Shown piece after piece: positions 1-9,190 of a stretch of 61,194 nt of DNA. The notes under the pieces are model-generated. The model ran no database searches, was not told the DNA's origin, and saw only the letters and a program-made list of their open reading frames with translations. The position numbers were made by a program, and so were the translations under genes. The stretch is from an uncultured Chthonomonas sp. (lineage in GTDB: Bacteria; Armatimonadota; Chthonomonadetes; Chthonomonadales; CAJBBX01). The number at the start of each line of letters is the position of its first letter. Within the stretch, counting starts at the first letter, position 1. The stretch spans positions 1 to 61,194 of the forward strand of contig CAJBBX010000043.1 in NCBI GenBank assembly GCA_903951425.1, given 5' to 3'.

Positions 1-900
1 GTGCTCTCCAAGGGCACCATCTCGGTGGTTGAGCCGTCCGTCATGGAAGCAACGCTCTCCGAGCTTCGCCTTCGCCCGCCGCTGACGTCGATCCAAGCCA
101 AGCAGCTGGCCGCTAAGCTTGGCACGCGGCTGATCATGATCGGCACGATCACGGAGTACGGCCAGCCCAGGGGCTCAAGCCCGGCCCTGACGGTCGCCAT
201 GAACGCCCGCATCGTCGATACGACCACGGATTCGATTGTCTGGGCAGCTGCCGCCACGAAGACCGGCAAGCCCGATGACAGCCTCTTCGGTAGCGGTATT
301 CCTCCGTCCCTGACCAAGCTCACCCATCAGAGCGTCGAGCAGCTGTTGAAGCTGCTGGAGAAGGCCAAGGCGGAGATCACGCGTTCCGCCGGACCGCCCG
401 GACCGGTTCCTGCAGCGCCCGGCGACGGTGGCGTCCAGCCGAACCAGACGGCCCCGGCGGCGCCGACATCCAACGAAACCAGCGTGACTGCCGATCCGGC
501 GAGGACTGCCGACGAGTCCAAGGAACTGACCACCGAGGAGATGGCGGCATACCTGCCGTCAGATCTTGGCGGCGCCAAGCGCGCCAGCGTCACCGAGGCC
601 GACAACTGCGTCCGGTCGCTGGACGCCATCTACCAGGCGCGGAACACCCAGATGCATGTTCGCCTGACCGACCAGGTGAAGGCGACGGACGCGGCAGCGG
701 TCGCCAAGGTTGCGGGCAAGGATGGTACGGCAGGCCCTCTGGGGCCTGTAACGGGCTACACGACCACCTCGGAGTTCGGCTTCGTCCACGTGAACGCCGC
801 TGCCGGCCGCTTCACCTTCGCGATCAAAGGACCGGCCGACGAGACCGAGTTGATACAGAAGATCGCTTCAGCGCTGGCCAAGTCGCTCAAGGCGCAGTAA
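1..900 (+). CDS. CsgG-like envelope protein, 5' end cut by window
   Basis: The frame is open from base 1, so the true start (and any signal peptide) is probably outside the window; the GTG at base 1 need not be the start. The first 125 residues resemble the CsgG/FlgO-type fold of outer-membrane-associated lipoproteins: a stretch around LGTRLIMIGTITEY is followed by a strand with NARIVDTTTDSIVWAA. A Pro/Ala/Thr-rich linker follows (about 130-180), then a C-terminal domain (about 183-299) I do not recognise. CsgG family members form oligomeric outer-membrane channels or periplasmic assembly factors. The gene lies 35 bases before a tetraheme cytochrome and heads the visible part of the cytochrome cassette. 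Family assignment is by pattern only and the exact role is unknown. Confidence 0.5.
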   Translation: MLSKGTISVVEPSVMEATLSELRLRPPLTSIQAKQLAAKLGTRLIMIGTITEYGQPRGSSPALTVAMNARIVDTTTDSIVWAAAATKTGKPDDSLFGSGIPPSLTKLTHQSVEQLLKLLEKAKAEITRSAGPPGPVPAAPGDGGVQPNQTAPAAPTSNETSVTADPARTADESKELTTEEMAAYLPSDLGGAKRASVTEADNCVRSLDAIYQARNTQMHVRLTDQVKATDAAAVAKVAGKDGTAGPLGPVTGYTTTSEFGFVHVNAAAGRFTFAIKGPADETELIQKIASALAKSLKAQ

Positions 901-935
901 GGCAGAGCCCACACGGGTTGAGGAGAGCACACTCG

Positions 936-1640
936 ATGCGGACCGATACGATGCGGCGCGCGCTGGTCGCTGCGCTGATGGTGGCGCCCATGCTGGCGCT
1001 ATTGCTGTTGCCTGACCTTGGGCGCGCGTTTGGCCAGGCCACTCCGAAGAAGCAGACCAAGACCACGAAGACCACGAAGAAGGCGCCTGCCAAGCCCGCC
1101 GGCAAGCCCGCGGTCGCGCCGAAGACGCCTGCGAAGCCTGCGGACAAGCTCGCGCCCGCCAAGCCGGACGCGACCCCTGCCAAGCCCGACGCCGCGCCGG
1201 CCGAGAAGACCGAGCCGGCCAAGCCCGAGGAGACCAAGCCGGAGGAGGGCAAGGCGGAGAAGACCGAACCGGCCAAGGAGGGCGCCGCGGCCGCGGCGAC
1301 CGGCGCCGCGCCTGCCGACGCCACCTACATTGGACCTTCCGCTTGCCAGGTCTGCCACGCAGACACCCACAAGAGCTGGCAGAAGAAGGCGCACTCGTCC
1401 GCCTTCGACCTCTTGGTGGCACGCAAGCAGGAGAAGAACGCCGCCTGCATCAAGTGCCACACGACCGGGTATGGCCGGGGCGGCTTCGTTGATGCCGAGA
1501 AGACCCCCGACCTCAGGGGCGTGACCTGCGAGTCGTGCCACGGTCCCGGTAGCGAGCACAATGGCGAAAAAGAGAAGATCACCCGAGTGCCTCCGGCGAC
1601 GGTATGCACCGACTGCCACATGAAGTCCAACATCCACTAA
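936..1640 (+). CDS. tetraheme c-type cytochrome (cytochrome c554-like) with long Lys/Pro/Ala linker
   Basis: Start chosen at ATG 936 because AGGAGA at 921-926 sits nine bases upstream; a TTG at 918 is less likely. The product is 234 residues. It has a signal peptide (hydrophobic stretch about 8-26), a low-complexity linker of repeated Lys-Pro-Ala-Glu units (about 36-125), then a compact C-terminal domain with four CxxCH heme sites: CQVCH, CIKCH, CESCH and CTDCH. The GPSACQVCH start and the CESCHGPG segment are typical of the cytochrome c554 family. Expected location is the periplasm or outer envelope, passing electrons. The linker could let the heme domain reach across the periplasm or cell wall, which is inference. 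It is followed after 33 bases by a 16-heme cytochrome, so the two probably act in one electron-transfer chain. Confidence 0.85.
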   Translation: MRTDTMRRALVAALMVAPMLALLLLPDLGRAFGQATPKKQTKTTKTTKKAPAKPAGKPAVAPKTPAKPADKLAPAKPDATPAKPDAAPAEKTEPAKPEETKPEEGKAEKTEPAKEGAAAAATGAAPADATYIGPSACQVCHADTHKSWQKKAHSSAFDLLVARKQEKNAACIKCHTTGYGRGGFVDAEKTPDLRGVTCESCHGPGSEHNGEKEKITRVPPATVCTDCHMKSNIH

Positions 1641-1673
1641 TTGGGGTCTAAGACCCTGACCGGGAGAGAAGCG

Positions 1674-3062
1674 ATGTCGAAGCGGGCCAACACGAGGGCC
1701 AGACTTGGGGCCGGCTTCGCCGCCGCGCTGGCGAGCTTGGTCGCACTCATTGCCGTCGGGAACGCACAGGTGGCAGTGACGACCGCTAAGGCGTCCTACG
1801 TGGGGTCGGCGGGCTGTATTAGGTGCCATGCCTCCATGGTCGCGGCGCACGCGAAGGGGCCTCACGGTGGCCTGATCGCTCCCCTCCCGGAGTCGATGCG
1901 GGGCTGCGAGAGCTGCCACGGCCCCGGTAGCCTGCATGCGACCGGCGACAAGACCGCGATCATCAACCCGGCCAAGGTGAGCGTACATGAGAGCGACGCT
2001 TCTTGCCTTGTGTGCCATGGCGCCAACGCCGGCCCGTCGGCGCCCCCTAAGGCCCAGAAGCTCGTTCAGTTGAGTTGGATGAGGGGACGCCATCCACGGA
2101 AAGACGTGGGCTGCGTCGCCTGCCACTCTGAGCACAAGGGGGGCGAGAAGCAGCTCAAGAAGGCCAAGTCGGAGCTCTGCTACTCGTGCCATAACCGCAT
2201 GGTCGGGCAGGCCGGCGACTTCCAGCACGCCGCGGTGCAGAAGGGGAACTGCCTGGACTGCCACGATGCGCACGCGTCGGGCAGGCCGTCCCTGGTGAAG
2301 AGCGGCGTCGATGCCACCTGCCGCAAGTGCCACGATGTCGCCAAGCCGGCGATGGACAAGGCGCATGGAGGCCTTGTGGGTGCGACGACCCGGTGCGTCA
2401 GTTGCCACTCGCCGCACATCAAGGACAAGGCCACGCACGGCCTGCCGTCCAATGCACACAAGCCGTACGCCGACCGGAGCTGCGGGCAGTGCCATGCAGC
2501 GCCGACCGCGGCGAAGACGGCTCCCCTCAAGGCGCCCGTCACTGAGCTCTGCGGCAAATGCCATGCGGCCGGCAAGATGGACGCCCTGTCGGCCTCGCAC
2601 CCGCCAGTGAGGCAGAAGCTGTGTACCACGTGCCATACCCCGCACGCATCTCGCCTGGCCAGCCCGCCGTTGTTCAAGGCCAAGCCGGACTTCGTGTGCC
2701 TCTCATGCCACAAGCAGGTGGACACGGCGCTGCAGAAGAAGTACCAGCATGCGCCCGTGGAGGCCGGGAACTGCACGAGCTGCCACTACGGTCACAAGAG
2801 CCCCGTGGAGAAGCTCCTTATCAAGGCGCCCATGGACCTATGCCAGGGCTGCCATCCTGACCAGCGAAAGTTCACGCACCCCGTCGGCGTGAAGGACGAC
2901 AACGGCCGCAAGGTCGTGATTGTGGACCCGCGCAACAAGAGGCAATTGACCTGTGCGAGTTGCCACGACGTCCACGGCGGCCCGCATGAGTACATCTCCC
3001 AGGCCGACTGGCGGCGCGATCTGTGCGTCCAGTGTCACAAAGGCGGGATGAAGGACCAATGA
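1674..3062 (+). CDS. secreted 16-heme c-type cytochrome
   Basis: Start at ATG 1674 after GGAGAG (1663-1668). The product is 462 residues with a signal peptide (about 1-32). I count sixteen CxxCH motifs spread evenly to the C-terminus: CIRCH, CESCH, CLVCH, CVACH, CYSCH, CLDCH, CRKCH, CVSCH, CGQCH, CGKCH, CTTCH, CLSCH, CTSCH, CQGCH, CASCH and CVQCH. Many are followed by xxH (for example CHSEH, CHDAH, CHSPH, CHTPH, CHDVH), as in doubled-CXXCH / DmsE-type proteins where the extra His may be a distal heme ligand. There are about 29 residues per heme, typical of a multiheme wire with little other structure. The stop overlaps the next start by ATGA. Likely role: periplasmic or extracellular electron conduit; the partner reductase or oxidase is not visible. 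Confidence 0.9.
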   Translation: MSKRANTRARLGAGFAAALASLVALIAVGNAQVAVTTAKASYVGSAGCIRCHASMVAAHAKGPHGGLIAPLPESMRGCESCHGPGSLHATGDKTAIINPAKVSVHESDASCLVCHGANAGPSAPPKAQKLVQLSWMRGRHPRKDVGCVACHSEHKGGEKQLKKAKSELCYSCHNRMVGQAGDFQHAAVQKGNCLDCHDAHASGRPSLVKSGVDATCRKCHDVAKPAMDKAHGGLVGATTRCVSCHSPHIKDKATHGLPSNAHKPYADRSCGQCHAAPTAAKTAPLKAPVTELCGKCHAAGKMDALSASHPPVRQKLCTTCHTPHASRLASPPLFKAKPDFVCLSCHKQVDTALQKKYQHAPVEAGNCTSCHYGHKSPVEKLLIKAPMDLCQGCHPDQRKFTHPVGVKDDNGRKVVIVDPRNKRQLTCASCHDVHGGPHEYISQADWRRDLCVQCHKGGMKDQ

Positions 3063-4045
3063 GCCGGCGAGTCATGCTCGGGATCGTGGTTTTGCTGTTG
3101 TGGGCCCACGCGGGCTCCTCCGCGGGCGCGCAGGGCGTGGTCCCGAAGCGGCTGCTCTTCGTGGTGGGTCGTGCGTTCGGCAAGGACTTCAGTGGCCCGT
3201 CCGGCGTATGGTATGACGCGAAGCACGGCGAGATATACGTCGCGGATACGGGCAACCACCGGCTGGTGGTCCTCGACGACCGCGGCATGCCCAAGGCCGA
3301 GCTCATGCGGACCGTCGAGAGGGCCGGGAGTACCAAGCCGATCGCCGGTGAGCCGAGCCGCATCGCCGTGAACTCGGGCGGAGATATGTTCGTGGTCGAT
3401 GTGCTTGCGGACTATGTGGACATGTGCGACTACCGCGGCCGGAGCCTTCGCCAGATCAGCCTCCGCGATTTCGCCGAGGCCGCCAAGCGGGTCGGCGCGC
3501 CCGCGAATGAGCCTGTTAGCCCTCTGGACCTGAAGGCCACGGCCGTCACGGTCGACAGCAAGGACAACATCTACATAGCCTGCAGGGCGCGGATCTATGT
3601 GTTCAGCCCGACATTCAAGCTGCTCCGAGCCATCGGCGCCAAGGGCTCAGAGCCGGGCCAGTTCACGGCGATTACATCGCTGTGGGTTGACGCCGCCGGC
3701 TTGATCTACGTGACCGACGCCAGGGCCCTGGCCGTACACGTTCTAGCCGCTGACGGCACGGTCCTCGTGGCCTTCGGCCAGCATGACTCAGGAGTAACCA
3801 ATTTCGGGTTGCCGATCGGGATCACCACCGACCTCCGGGGCAATATCTGGGTAGCCGATACGCTCCGCCACATCGTCAGCGTCTTCCGCCGAACAGGCAA
3901 CAAGGTCGAGTACCTGGACTACATCGGTACGCTCGGGACGCGGGGCGGCGAGTTCGCCTACCCCAGCGGGCTCACGGCCTCCTCCACCGGCAGGATGCTG
4001 GTCGTGGACCGTGTCGGTTGTCGGGTCCAGTGCTTCGAGATGTAG
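3059..4045 (+). CDS. exported NHL-repeat beta-propeller protein
   Basis: The ATG at 3059 overlaps the stop of the 16-heme gene (ATGA), with AAGG at 3051-3054 just upstream, so translation is probably coupled. The 328-residue protein has a signal peptide (about 1-25) and at least five NHL blades. Recurrent motifs include GPSGVWYD, GEIYVADTGNHRLVVLD, DNIYIACRARIYVF, GLIYVTD, NIWVADTLRHIVSVF and GEFAYPSGLT. NHL propellers usually bind ligands or proteins rather than catalyse. NHL proteins are often encoded beside multiheme cytochromes in metal-reducing bacteria, so a role as scaffold or docking partner of the cytochromes is a reasonable inference. It is the last gene of the cassette; the next gene is convergent. 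Confidence 0.8.
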   Translation: MSRRVMLGIVVLLLWAHAGSSAGAQGVVPKRLLFVVGRAFGKDFSGPSGVWYDAKHGEIYVADTGNHRLVVLDDRGMPKAELMRTVERAGSTKPIAGEPSRIAVNSGGDMFVVDVLADYVDMCDYRGRSLRQISLRDFAEAAKRVGAPANEPVSPLDLKATAVTVDSKDNIYIACRARIYVFSPTFKLLRAIGAKGSEPGQFTAITSLWVDAAGLIYVTDARALAVHVLAADGTVLVAFGQHDSGVTNFGLPIGITTDLRGNIWVADTLRHIVSVFRRTGNKVEYLDYIGTLGTRGGEFAYPSGLTASSTGRMLVVDRVGCRVQCFEM

Positions 4046-4095: not shown

Positions 4096-6477
4096 CTAGC
4101 CGGGCGGCTGTGGCCGAGGCGCCCATCTCTCGAGCTTTTCTCGTAGCTCCTGCACGCGGACAGGCTTGGAAACATAGTCGTCCATGCCTGCACGGAGGCA
4201 CTTCTCCCGGTACCCATCCATGGCGTGCGCGGTCATCGCGATGACGGGCACGTAGCGGCCGGTCTCCTGCTCGGTTCGCCGGATCTCAGCGGTAGTCTCG
4301 AACCCGTTCATGCCTGGCATCTGCACATCCATGAGGACCACATCGAATGGAGCGCGTCCAAGCGCGGCGAGCGCTTCGGGGCCACTGGATACGGCCTCGA
4401 CCCGGCATCCCAGGCGTTCAAGTTGCCGCGCCGCAACGCGCTGGTTCACGATGTTGTCTTCAACGACGAGAACGCGAAGCCCGAGCGGCGCGGGCTCTGT
4501 CGGGTCCGGTGCGGGCGGCCCATCGGAGGCGCGATCGTCCGCGCGCATCCCCATGACCCCCGCAAGCGTGTCGCGCAGGTGCGATTGGCGGACCGGCTTG
4601 GTCAGGCAGGCTGCGAAGCTCGGGCCCGCTGCATCAGTAGCCGGGTTCCGAGGGCCCATCGACGACATCAGCACGATCGGGATCGAGGCTAGCCTCGGGT
4701 CCGCCGCCATCGCGGTTGCGACGCCAGCCCCGTCGATATCGGGCATCTGCATGTCAAGGAGCACCAGTGCATAGGCGCCCGGACGGCCGCGCAGCATGGC
4801 GAGCGCCTCGGCGCCGCCGGGCGCCTGGGATGCGCGGCAACCCCAGGTGAGTAGCTGGGCCAGCAGGATGCGCCGGTTGGTGGCGTTGTCATCCACCACC
4901 AGGATCGGCAGGTCGGACAACACCGCGGGCGCGGCGCTGGGTTCGTCGCCGGCCGTGTGGCGCGGCAGGTTGAGCTCGACCCAGAACGTGCTGCCCCTGC
5001 CCGGTTCGCTCTCCAAGCCGATCCGCCCGCCGAGTAGCTCGACCAGTTGCCGCGAGATCGCCAGGCCGAGGCCGGTTCCGCCGTAGCGGCGCGTCGTGCT
5101 CCCGTCAGCCTGGGTGAAGCTGTCGAAGATCGCCGCGTGTCGGTCCGACGGAATGCCGACCCCGGTGTCCGTGACCGTGATGCGGAAGTGCGCCGTGCTC
5201 GGTGTCTGGTCGAGCAATCGGGCCTCCATGGAGACCTCACCTGCATGGGTGAACTTAATGGCGTTGCCGACTAGGTTCGTGAGGACCTGCCGCAACCGGC
5301 CCGGATCGCCCTCAAGGAACTCGGGCAGGTGGCCGGAGACCACGCAGGTGAGCTCGATGTCCTTTTCCCAGGCCCTCGGCGCCAGCATCTCGGCCACATC
5401 CTCCATCAGGCGGCGGAGGTCGAACGCCACCACGTCGATGGTGAGCTTGCCGGCTTCGATCTTGCTGAAGTCGAGGATATCGTTGATCACCGTAAGGAGC
5501 GCATCGGCGCTGCTCTGGATGGTCTCCGTGATGTCCCTTTGCTCCGGGGTCTGATGCGTCTCCAGGAGCATGCCGGTCATGCCGATGATGCCGTTCATCG
5601 GCGTGCGAATCTCGTGGCTCATGTTGGCAAGGAACTCGGACTTCACCCGGGACGCCTGCAGCGCCTGGTCGCGCGCCTCCGATAGCTGGCCGAGCGCACC
5701 CGTCAGGGTCTCCTCGGCTCGCTTCCGGTCTGCGATCTCCGCGCTGAGCGATGCGTCCCGGCGCTCTACCTGGGAGAGCATCTCGTTGAACGAGGTGACC
5801 AGCGTGCCTACTTCGTCGCGGCTCTCGCTCGGTACGCGGGTGGAGTAGTCCTTCTTGAGCGCGACCTCATTGGCGGCTTCGGCGAGGCGTAGGATCGGTT
5901 GCGCGATGATCCGCTGGAAGAAGAATGAGAGCCGATAGGCCACAGCCAGAGCTATGACCAGTATGGCGACCACGATCCAGGCGAACCGCCCGAAGCGCTC
6001 CTGTCCCGCCTTCAGGTCCGACCGAAGCAAGACCGTCCCGATGGTGTTGCCGCCGACCAGCACCGGTCGAACGCACTCCAGGTAGCCGCCCTTGAATTGG
6101 TGAGGAACCGTGGGCGGCGGCGATGGGAGGCGAACGCGCCCTTGCCCTGCTCGGACATAGTCCGCTACGGGACGCCCCGCGGAGTCGTACAGGCATGCCG
6201 CGACAATGTGCGGGTCGGAGTCCAGCACGGCCAGCGTGTCGCGTGCGCCCTTCTCGTCGCTGAACGCCAGCGAGGCGGTGCAACTCTCCGCCGTGATGGC
6301 CGCCTGGGTGCTCAGGTTCCGAACCAGGTCCCTGCGGAAGACGACGACGGCCTCGGTGACGAGGGCGGCGCAGACCAGCGCCAGCACCACTGCGCTGGTA
6401 CACATCAGTGCAACGGTCAGCTTCCGTTGGATCGGCAAGTCCCGGAAGGGCCCCATGTGTACCGGGCCCTTGCTCAT
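4096..6477 (-). CDS. hybrid sensor histidine kinase with two receiver domains
   Basis: 793 residues. Order: TM1 (about 20-45), periplasmic CHASE8-like sensor (about 50-155), TM2 (about 165-187), HAMP (about 190-243), short coiled coil, HisKA with H288 in [12 protein letters not shown], HATPase with N405 (NLVGNAIKF) and the DTGVGI and [10 protein letters not shown] boxes, then two REC domains. REC1 has D529/D530, acceptor D575 and K627. REC2 has D674, acceptor D717 and K771. All key residues look intact. The start overlaps the stop of the YfiR-type gene by ATGA, so the two are co-translated. The TonB-receptor/YfiR/kinase order suggests sensing of an outer-membrane or periplasmic signal. No DNA-binding output domain is present, so the phosphate probably goes to a partner elsewhere or is held in the REC domains. 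Confidence 0.92.
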
Positions 6478-7091
6478 GGTCCGATCACACGCCGAGCCAC
6501 TTTGAGCAGGCGCCCGCTCGGCTTCAGGCCGGACTTGGAGGCGGAGGCCAGGTTCACCTCGAACCCCACCCGGCGCTCAGCCACGACGAACCGGATCATC
6601 CCGCCGGCGCCCAGGAACTGCTCAGCTTCGCCCACGGTGAGGACGGGGGCTCCACGCAGGTCCGACAGCAGGTCGGCGTGTCGCGCATGCTCGAAAGCGC
6701 TGATGAAGAGCACATGGCACGACTTCATCTGGTCGACCTTGGTGACGCGGCGGTAGACCATCGGCCTCCCACCGACCGACTCGCCTCGGATTGTACTCTC
6801 CAGGCGCCCGGCGAACGGATCCTCGCCGAGGACGCCGATGATGAACGGCGAACCGGAGGCCGCGAACGCCGCCGCCGGCCAGGTCACGAAGTTCGCGAAG
6901 TTGTACAGGAACGCCGCCTTGACGTCGTACTCGGAGGCCACGCGCGGCGCCTGGGCATCGGCCGGCCTGGTGCCGGCGAGCGACGCACAGAAGAACAGGC
7001 CCGTCGCGATGAGCGCGCGGACGGCGGTCCACTGCGTGCGCACGGCCCGCCGTTGTCTTTGCGCGGTGTTGAAGCTGTCGCGTTGCTGCAT
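6474..7091 (-). CDS. YfiR/DUF4154-family periplasmic protein
   Basis: Start at ATG 7091, twelve bases after the stop of the TonB-receptor gene; 205 residues. It has an N-terminal signal segment (about 16-42, ending ADAQA). The mature part begins [20 protein letters not shown], the hallmark opening of the YfiR/DUF4154 family, followed by the conserved GVLGEDPF stretch and a late motif with [18 protein letters not shown]. YfiR-type proteins are small periplasmic regulators that inhibit a membrane signalling partner (in Pseudomonas, a diguanylate cyclase). Here the neighbour is a hybrid kinase whose start overlaps this stop by four bases, so I infer that it modulates that kinase's periplasmic sensor. 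Confidence 0.85.
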
Positions 7092-7102
7092 GTTGGGTTG
7101 CC

Positions 7103-9160
7103 CTACAGCCTGTGCGTGACCTTCAGCTGGATCGTCCGCCCGTCCTGACGGACCGCGTCCTGCTGGAAGTCCTCGGGCACCGGATCCGCGTAGCGCGTGT
7201 TGAGCAGGTTCCGGAGGCACAGCGACCACTCGGCGCCGCTGGCGGAGCTCGCGCTGGAGATCGCCAGGTTGGCTACGGCGTACGCGCCGCAGTTGCCGCC
7301 GCGTGCGGTCTTTCGGCTGCCCATGGCATGCAGTTCGAACCCGGCAGTAAGCCCGCCACGAAGCGGGGCCGCCAGGCTGAGCTGCATCAGGTGCATCGGC
7401 GAGTTGCTGAGCCGATACCCCGTCGTGGTGTCGGTGCAGTCGGCGAACGTGTAGCTCAGGCGTCCGCGCAAGCCGTTGGCCCACCGGCCCTGGATCTCCA
7501 GTTCCGCGCCACGGGCCCGGGCGCCGCCCAGATTATCGTTGTAGAACTCGCCTGTCTCAGGGTCGTAGGCCTGACCGATCAGGCGGCCGATGTCGCTCAG
7601 GAACATGGCCGCGCCCGCACGCAGGTGGGCGTTGATGCCGTGCTCGACCGCAAGCTCCAGGGCGCGTGTGGTCTCCGGCTGAAGGTCCGGGTTTGACCTG
7701 TACCCAGGCATGATGTTCCCATACTCGTAGTAGTTCGGCGCCCGAACGGCCTGACCGTAGAGCAGTTTTACCGTGGTGTCGTGGCCGGCGCTCTGGATCA
7801 GGGCCGCGCGCGGCGTGACCGTGCTGCGGAACCGGCTGAACCAGTCGTACCGGAGGCCCGCGTTCAGGGCGAGCCCGGCGGTCAGCGGAACCGTGTCCTG
7901 GATGTAGGCGCCGGCGGTCTGGGCGTTGTCGCGGTTGTCGCGCCAGACGTTGGGCGGGTCGTCGTCGAGGTTCCTGAGGTGGAGCAGCGGGTCCCACCGG
8001 AACTCGCTTCCCAGCATCACCTCGTGCCTGCCCCAGAGCGTCTTACTGACCTGGGCCTCGGCGCCGAGGCTGCGGGCCGTGTCCAGTTCGATGTTCAGCG
8101 TTCGGTCGCCCAGGAGCGGCGGCACGCCGTAGTTGTACTCATAGGGGAACTGCTGTCGCCCGGCGTAGTGGTCGTAGTAGGCCCGCACGCGGATATCCAG
8201 CTGGTTGGCGTACTCGTGGTCATACCGCAGGTCGACGAACGCCCGTTCGTCCGCGGTGGTATAGGTCGGATCGCCGAAGAGGGTGCCGTACGGCGCGTTG
8301 GGCACGTGCTTGCTGCGGCGGCCATAGACGGCGGCCAGGGCGTAGTCGCCGCGGCGCACTTCGCCGAACAGGCTGCCGCCCGACTCGCCGTTCATGTTGT
8401 CGGCGACACCGTCGTTAACCATTTTGAACTCGGGGTAGACGAGGCGGGCCGGTCCGGCGCTTCCGGCGATCGTGCCCGAGACGGTGACCTCGGCGCCGCC
8501 TGCAAGCCGGCTTCCGTAGGTCACTCGACCGTCGTAGGCGCCGAAGGTGGCTCCGCTCGCCGAGAGCTCGGCGCCGCCGATGTTGCCTCCGCGCCGGGTG
8601 ACCACGTTGATGACGGCAAAGAAGGCGTTGTTCCCATACAGCGAAGAAGCCGGACCGCGGATGACCTCTATCCTCTCGACCAGCGCCATGTCCAGCGGGA
8701 ACTCAGTGCCGGCGAAGTTGCTGTCGTAGACGGCATCATTGATGCGGTGCCCGTTTATCGTAACCGGCGTGCGGCCGCCGAAGTCGCCGGGCCGGTTGAA
8801 GCCGCGAACTCCGATGAAGTCGTAGGCCCGGTCGTTCGTCACATAGAGGCCATGGACACTGCGTAGCGCGTCCGCCAGGGTGCGGTAGCCGAACTGCCGG
8901 ATGTCGTCGCACGTGATTATCGTGACCGAGGACGGCGCCTCGGTGGTCCTCTGTGCGCGCTGCGAGGCGCCGTAGACGATGCCGACCTCGACCTGGGCCA
9001 GATCCTCCAGGCTCAGGCGCTTGAGCGGGGCGGGCGGCACGGTCTGGGACTGGCCCGCCGCAGGGGCGACGCCAACCGCCACCGCCGCAGTGAGGCAGGC
9101 GAGGAGGCGGCCCGGCATACACCTGTGCAGCGAGCGGCCCGGATATGCTGAAGTGGACAT
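7103..9160 (-). CDS. TonB-dependent outer-membrane receptor
   Basis: A signal peptide is followed by a plug domain: VEVGIVYGASQRAQRTTEAPSSV is near the N-terminus, then LADALRSVHGLYV, GVRGFNRPGDFGGRTPV and VERIEVIRGPASSLYGNNAFFAVINV. A long beta-barrel ends in a terminal strand with IQLKVTHRL. ATG 9160 is preferred (GGGGGA about 12 bases upstream), giving 685 residues; GTG 9187 and ATG 9118 are alternatives. The size fits vitamin B12, siderophore or small-ligand receptors of the CirA/BtuB type. The substrate cannot be read from sequence. It is the first gene of a TonB-receptor, YfiR, kinase operon, an arrangement that suggests receptor activity and signalling are linked. Two tight hairpins lie in its leader. 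Confidence 0.9.
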   Translation of the reverse strand: MSTSAYPGRSLHRCMPGRLLACLTAAVAVGVAPAAGQSQTVPPAPLKRLSLEDLAQVEVGIVYGASQRAQRTTEAPSSVTIITCDDIRQFGYRTLADALRSVHGLYVTNDRAYDFIGVRGFNRPGDFGGRTPVTINGHRINDAVYDSNFAGTEFPLDMALVERIEVIRGPASSLYGNNAFFAVINVVTRRGGNIGGAELSASGATFGAYDGRVTYGSRLAGGAEVTVSGTIAGSAGPARLVYPEFKMVNDGVADNMNGESGGSLFGEVRRGDYALAAVYGRRSKHVPNAPYGTLFGDPTYTTADERAFVDLRYDHEYANQLDIRVRAYYDHYAGRQQFPYEYNYGVPPLLGDRTLNIELDTARSLGAEAQVSKTLWGRHEVMLGSEFRWDPLLHLRNLDDDPPNVWRDNRDNAQTAGAYIQDTVPLTAGLALNAGLRYDWFSRFRSTVTPRAALIQSAGHDTTVKLLYGQAVRAPNYYEYGNIMPGYRSNPDLQPETTRALELAVEHGINAHLRAGAAMFLSDIGRLIGQAYDPETGEFYNDNLGGARARGAELEIQGRWANGLRGRLSYTFADCTDTTTGYRLSNSPMHLMQLSLAAPLRGGLTAGFELHAMGSRKTARGGNCGAYAVANLAISSASSASGAEWSLCLRNLLNTRYADPVPEDFQQDAVRQDGRTIQLKVTHRL

Positions 9161-9190
9161 CAAGCTAGCGCTTCCCCCATGCCGCACCAG

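Follow-up and report, generated by a model that had tools for sequence, protein, structure and literature searches.

An eight-gene locus of uncultured Armatimonadota with OmcS-type hexaheme cytochromes and a fusion of cytochrome, Ig-like domains and predicted barrel, probably serving extracellular electron transfer

The export, anchoring and electron supply of cytochrome filaments has been described as an open question (PMC12307469). Among the systems closest to the one treated here is the osc (omcS companion) operon of Geobacter sulfurreducens, in which, according to two accounts, omcS, omcT and oscC encode hexaheme cytochromes (PMC13194489, PMC12977616), while the first assigns OscD to nanowire morphology, OscE, OscF and OscG to secretion, and OscH to folding (PMC13194489). 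In the OetABI cassettes of syntrophic sulfate reducers, an OmcS-like cytochrome is encoded together with a porin-cytochrome conduit (PMC10553843), and in Cyc2 a cytochrome carrying one heme is fused to a porin with a predicted 16-strand barrel (PMC8406198). In the present work, we examine the first 4,045 bases of a 61,194-nucleotide stretch of DNA (the window) from an uncultured Chthonomonas sp. of the phylum Armatimonadota, namely contig CAJBBX010000043.1 (C43) of assembly GCA_903951425.1 (G000), and compare them with related genomes. We will show that these bases form the 3' half of an eight-gene locus, which probably serves extracellular electron transfer around OmcS-type hexahemes and which encodes a fusion of a nine-heme cytochrome, immunoglobulin (Ig)-like domains and a predicted barrel.

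An earlier note on this DNA, made from the window alone, had found no porin among these genes and had suggested that a CsgG-like protein might instead be the pore of a new, porin-free type of conduit. That there is no porin gene in 1–4045 is correct. However, base 1 of the window is the first base of contig C43 in a draft assembly (6.08 Mb, 188 contigs, completeness 100), and the suggested reading is an artefact, because the contig breaks at this point. A search with the locus proteins of a related genome, G012, traced the four genes that open the locus to the end of another contig of the same genome, C157. The 68 first codons of the CsgG-like (below, GNA1162-like) gene stand at the end of C157, and C43 resumes about 14 bp later, the gap being bridged by a contig of the same-genus genome G001. 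The locus of G001 is in turn broken inside the giant 9-heme gene, where C157 bridges the break. In G012, the locus is unbroken on a single contig and encodes two hexahemes, a PD40/TolB-like propeller, a 1719-residue 9-heme protein, the CsgG-like protein, the tetraheme and 16-heme cytochromes and an NHL propeller. The order in G000, reading C157 and then C43, is hexaheme, hexaheme, PD40/TolB-like propeller, 1736-residue 9-heme/Ig/barrel protein, GNA1162-like protein, tetraheme, 16-heme and NHL propeller, with all eight genes in one direction. The sequence directly before the CsgG-like gene thus encodes, on C157, a predicted outer-membrane beta-barrel domain, and three other genomes have a homologous separate gene, so that a porin-free conduit is not supported. 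The genes at the beginning of the window are as follows.

1–900, + strand: 3' part of the gene for a GNA1162/CsgG-superfamily protein, 5'-truncated, with an N-terminal alpha/beta domain and a conserved C-terminal domain of undefined type
936–1640, + strand: exported tetraheme cytochrome c, Cytochrome_C554-like, with a signal peptide, a spacer of about 90 residues rich in Lys, Pro and Ala, and 4 CXXCH
1674–3062, + strand: exported 16-heme cytochrome c, MtrA/DmsE-like, with doubled CXXCH motifs
3059–4045, + strand: secreted NHL beta-propeller, in ATGA overlap with the 16-heme gene; final gene of the cluster
4096–6477, − strand: histidine-kinase gene, converging on the cytochrome cluster

The cluster ends with the NHL gene at 4045, since the histidine-kinase gene converges on it. 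The gene order, which the note had proposed to compare across Armatimonadota, is conserved; the predicted barrel and the multiheme protein form one chain in G000, G001, G012 and G014 and are two proteins in G032, G232 and G275. Contamination during binning was considered and rejected, as the second metagenome-assembled genome (MAG) of the genus, G001, has the same gene order at about 91% identity.

Extracellular electron transfer as the function of the locus is well supported by homology, because the upstream half codes for two hexahemes similar to OmcS and the 16-heme protein resembles MtrA. The hexahemes, which open the locus on C157 and have six CXXCH motifs each, are homologous to OmcS by profile comparison: OmcS (6EF8/6NEF) is the sole PDB match up to an E-value (E) of 1, with E 5.6e-10 and most of the length aligned. 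When 16 Armatimonadota hexahemes are aligned (one row is partial, with three sites missing at the N terminus and a fourth incomplete), the number of invariant His is exactly 12: six belong to CXXCH motifs and the other six do not. The six hemes of OmcS are ligated by the same number, all 12 axial ligands being His, of which one subunit supplies 11 and its neighbour the twelfth (PMC6584659). The family is present in 9 of 291 genomes of the phylum, and we found no report of an OmcS-type locus or gene in Armatimonadota in the literature searched, which covered few subscription papers. Searches of plasmids with the hexaheme and with the GNA1162-like protein yielded no useful match.

In general make-up, the locus is best read as resembling the osc operon. 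Both have several hexaheme OmcS-type genes together with helper genes, putative ones in the present case; here the hexaheme genes cluster with propeller genes and a predicted barrel, the osc operon being likened by description and not by sequence. Shen et al. (Cell Chem Biol, 2025) reportedly found OscD to resemble a beta-propeller, OscE, OscF and OscG to resemble channels, and OscH to be a prolyl isomerase. Unlike the osc operon, the present locus encodes a tetraheme cytochrome, a 16-heme cytochrome of MtrA type, a GNA1162-like protein and, as its second propeller, an NHL protein; its predicted barrel is fused to a 9-heme Ig protein, and none of its genes was seen to encode a prolyl isomerase.

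The 16-heme protein has 16 CXXCH motifs in 462 residues and matches the doubled-CXXCH family PF09699 with 188 bits. All 16 heme sites are invariant in five orthologues of 36–91% identity, and the count is therefore not a matter of chance. The best PDB match of its profile is MtrA, chain A of 6R2Q from the Shewanella Mtr complex, with E 2.5e-35 (the label 'Cystathionine beta-synthase' on this chain is wrong; PMC7198977), and the protein is best described as an MtrA/DmsE-like wire lengthened by six hemes. Among 61 related genomes searched, close copies occur in G001 (same genus, 91%), G012, G014 and G032, the G001 copy being located on contig JAPLCQ010000104.1 of an Armatimonadetes MAG from Lac Pavin, which bears out the phylum. 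A scan of named genomes with this protein gave one close relative only.

The tetraheme cytochrome matches Cytochrome_C554 in Pfam with 53.2 bits. Its start is ATG 936 and not TTG 918, with GAGGAG upstream of ATG 936. The spacer after its signal sequence is found in this genus and is absent from the 138-residue G012 orthologue; linkers of such composition can bridge the periplasm, TonB being an example. The NHL propeller scores 78 bits with Pfam NHL, and its ATG (3059–3061) overlaps the TGA (3060–3062) of the 16-heme gene. Sec-type signal sequences are visible by eye at the start of all three proteins. The two exported cytochromes and the coupled propeller gene that had been read from the window are thereby borne out.

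Compared with MtrCAB and porin-cytochrome conduits, the locus has in common an MtrA homologue, the 16-heme protein, and a predicted large barrel. It differs in having 16 hemes instead of 10, in a barrel that lies outside the MtrB/PioB family and has no Pfam match, in the lack of an extracellular multiheme lipoprotein (MtrC) and in the joining of the barrel to nine hemes in one chain. The OetABI cassettes share with it the encoding of an OmcS-like cytochrome together with a porin conduit, but there OetB is a separate extracellular lipoprotein, and both the phylum and the gene set are different.

We now turn to the 1736-residue protein. It consists of a signal sequence, nine CXXCH motifs (approximately residues 75–530), Ig-like domains, a linker rich in Gly and a C-terminal domain of about 550 residues. 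In the copies of G012 and G001, the Ig-like domains score as Big_1/invasin-like. The C-terminal domain contains 39–43% Ser/Thr/Gly/Asn and 0–1 Cys, and ends in Phe. Its polar/apolar alternation has z values of 2.7–3.2 in single sequences and of about 4 when averaged over two orthologues. Known barrels (E. coli LptD, OmpF, FadL and BtuB, and the TonB receptor of the window) give 1.35–4.15, while five soluble E. coli proteins, SurA, the propellers, the CsgG-like protein and the 9-heme part all stay at or below 0.7. On these grounds the domain is predicted to be an outer-membrane beta-barrel.

A stand-alone protein of about 565 residues is encoded in G032, G232 and G275. Its gene has a multiheme gene (9, 8 or 7 hemes, respectively) as immediate upstream neighbour and the GNA1162-like gene as immediate downstream neighbour, and a signal sequence is visible on the protein in G032 and G232. 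The profile of these proteins aligns to the fused C-terminal domain over 486 columns with E 2.2e-4, which establishes their homology at the sequence level. From this alignment and the matching gene order it follows that the barrel is separate in sister lineages and fused elsewhere. The fused-barrel profile was found in 4 of the 291 genomes of the phylum.

By eye, no lipobox can be seen in the 9-heme part, which is joined to the barrel in one chain. For the Cyc2 barrel, a periplasmic N terminus has been argued (PMC8406198); if the barrel here follows this usual topology, the nine hemes and the Ig stalk would be inside, while an autotransporter-like topology would place them outside. Like Cyc2, the protein has an N-terminal c-type cytochrome and a C-terminal barrel, predicted in the present case, in a single chain; unlike Cyc2, it has nine hemes, Ig-like domains and a domain of about 550 residues with no detectable family match. 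As a tentative proposal, which we hold with less than even confidence, the protein may be a single-chain outer-membrane conduit or docking port that takes the 16-heme wire on the inside and seeds or anchors an OmcS-type filament on the outside. If true, porin, terminal cytochrome and filament base would be united in one 1736-residue protein. No description of a nine-heme/Ig/barrel fusion was found in the literature searched.

The gene content and order, their conservation, the homologies to OmcS and MtrA and the 12 expected heme-ligand His are the observations on which a mechanism can be built. In the mechanism that we propose as the most likely one, the tetraheme cytochrome and the 16-heme MtrA-like wire would carry electrons across the periplasm to the barrel. 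The 9-heme/barrel protein would reside in the outer membrane as conduit, exit port or both, and the hexahemes would leave the cell and stack head to tail like OmcS. The two propellers and the GNA1162-like protein would aid export, assembly or anchoring. Both the electron path and these helper roles are our inference, as is the formation of filaments by the hexahemes.

It is important to point out that a number of results weigh against this picture. The Ig-like stretch also has an alternation z of 2.96, so that alternation indicates amphipathic beta structure and not a barrel as such. The AlphaFold2 (AF2) model of the barrel domain, made from one sequence, has a pLDDT (predicted local distance difference test) of 28.6, and the barrel-domain profile matches no barrel family in Pfam, NCBIfam or the PDB. 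The MtrB-like porin that the earlier note had named as one possible explanation of the cytochromes is not found either, PF11854 being absent from the G000 genome. In the same genome there is no NapC/NirT quinol dehydrogenase (PF03264). There is also no prolyl isomerase of the OscH type among the eight locus genes, all of which are assigned to other families, the rest of the genome not having been searched for it. Finally, one account states that sequence in the OmcS family cannot sort filament formers from paralogues and that most OmcS homologues are without a shown filament (PMC12977616).

The alternative that survives best is that the 9-heme protein, the barrel and the GNA1162-like protein form a secretion or assembly port for the hexahemes, similar to that of the osc operon, and not a conduit, with periplasmic cytochromes charging the filament directly. 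OscE, OscF and OscG are described as required for secretion of OmcS in Geobacter (PMC13194489), PpcA–E have been proposed as direct chargers of OmcS filaments (PMC10954620), and the present genome has a separate porin-cytochrome-like set on contig C187. On the other hand, a barrel with nine hemes of its own and a co-encoded MtrA-like 16-heme protein exceed the redox needs of a secretion channel, and we regard a pure export port as possible but somewhat unlikely.

Another option is that the locus encodes a porin-cytochrome conduit for which the hexahemes are single extracellular reductases that form no filaments. The hexahemes tested have kept every one of the 12 ligand His that an OmcS-type subunit should have, and we consider this option unlikely.

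The CsgG-like protein as outer-membrane pore of a porin-free conduit is highly improbable, and it was rejected. The label itself is weak: the full-length orthologue just reaches the CsgG cut-off of Pfam (20.8 bits vs 20.8), which is the one point that favours a CsgG pore, but the truncated window copy is below it (15.9), and GNA1162-like (PF05643, cut-off 25.9) is the better description. For the latter family the window copy scores 17.3, also below the cut-off, while the full-length proteins score 26.3 in G001, 27.3 in G012 and 45.3 bits in G032. GNA1162-like Pfam matches are obtained for 6 of 6 family members (E <= 0.1), and PDB entry 4HRV is matched with E 1.6e-9. By these scores, the protein belongs with the GNA1162-like lipoproteins. 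A lipobox is visible by eye in the G032 and G232 copies and in none of those from G000, G001, G012 and G014.

With CsgG the protein shares a broad alpha/beta superfamily. The comparison for pore segments, which had been suggested as a check, shows that the alignment to E. coli CsgG is non-significant and leaves largely unmatched a CsgG segment of about 20 residues, ESNVKSGGVGARYFGIGADTQYQLDQ, which we take to be the first transmembrane hairpin (TM1). An AF2 model from two sequences, of low confidence (pLDDT 35), has only a short loop at the position of this hairpin. A role as pore is thus unlikely, all the more as this lineage lacks the lipobox and a barrel-like domain is encoded alongside; the simplest assumption is an accessory function in the periplasm or at the outer membrane. 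The literature search found no paper that joins CsgG with multiheme electron transfer. The only clear CsgG-family match of the genome (G000:C174:68671–69174, 68.7 bits) is positionally unrelated to the locus.

A soluble periplasmic respiratory set of the nitrite, DMSO or TMAO type can be dismissed as very improbable; the earlier note had named a soluble nitrite/DMSO reductase. A weak resemblance of the locus cytochromes to NrfB and DmsE models speaks for it, but in the genomes examined neither a molybdopterin reductase nor NrfA was seen to be encoded in the locus.

The locus is real and conserved, and it is probably important. Candidates for the filament come together in it with a predicted barrel of the outer membrane and a lengthened MtrA-like wire. 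Sister lineages have the barrel either fused to the multiheme protein or encoded next to it, which links the two and gives a concrete hypothesis for the filament base. The interest lies in the fusion, its split counterparts and the phylum. Lac Pavin is a ferruginous meromictic lake, and because the host genus occurs there, iron respiration by uncultured Armatimonadota is a testable idea.

Other cytochrome clusters were also observed. The separate porin-cytochrome-like set of G000 mentioned above (C187, L026:5276–9553, − strand) encodes an MtrA/DmsE-like protein of 350 residues with 9 CXXCH, a domain of about 525 residues that shows a barrel-like pattern and has Phe as its last residue, and a lipobox-bearing 8-heme protein. 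It is kept in G002, a genome of the same genus that has no match to the nanowire locus. Elsewhere in Armatimonadota, L028 (G040:C92) encodes a 28-heme protein, a 10-heme MtrA-like protein, a possible barrel of 555 residues and an 8-heme lipoprotein. In G032, the split locus is adjoined by the gene of the cytochrome c maturation protein ResB (PF05140, 239 bits; L059:5446–6864).

Possible regulators are found on the upstream side of the locus, where a histidine kinase and a NarL-like response regulator are encoded directly before the hexahemes on C157 of G000 (L053:5579–7580). G001 has such a pair as well, and in G275 one is encoded close to the cluster. On the downstream side, positions 4096–9187 of the window encode on the − strand a hybrid histidine kinase, a possible YfiR/DUF4154-like protein (by eye) and a TonB-dependent receptor, all converging on the cytochrome cluster.

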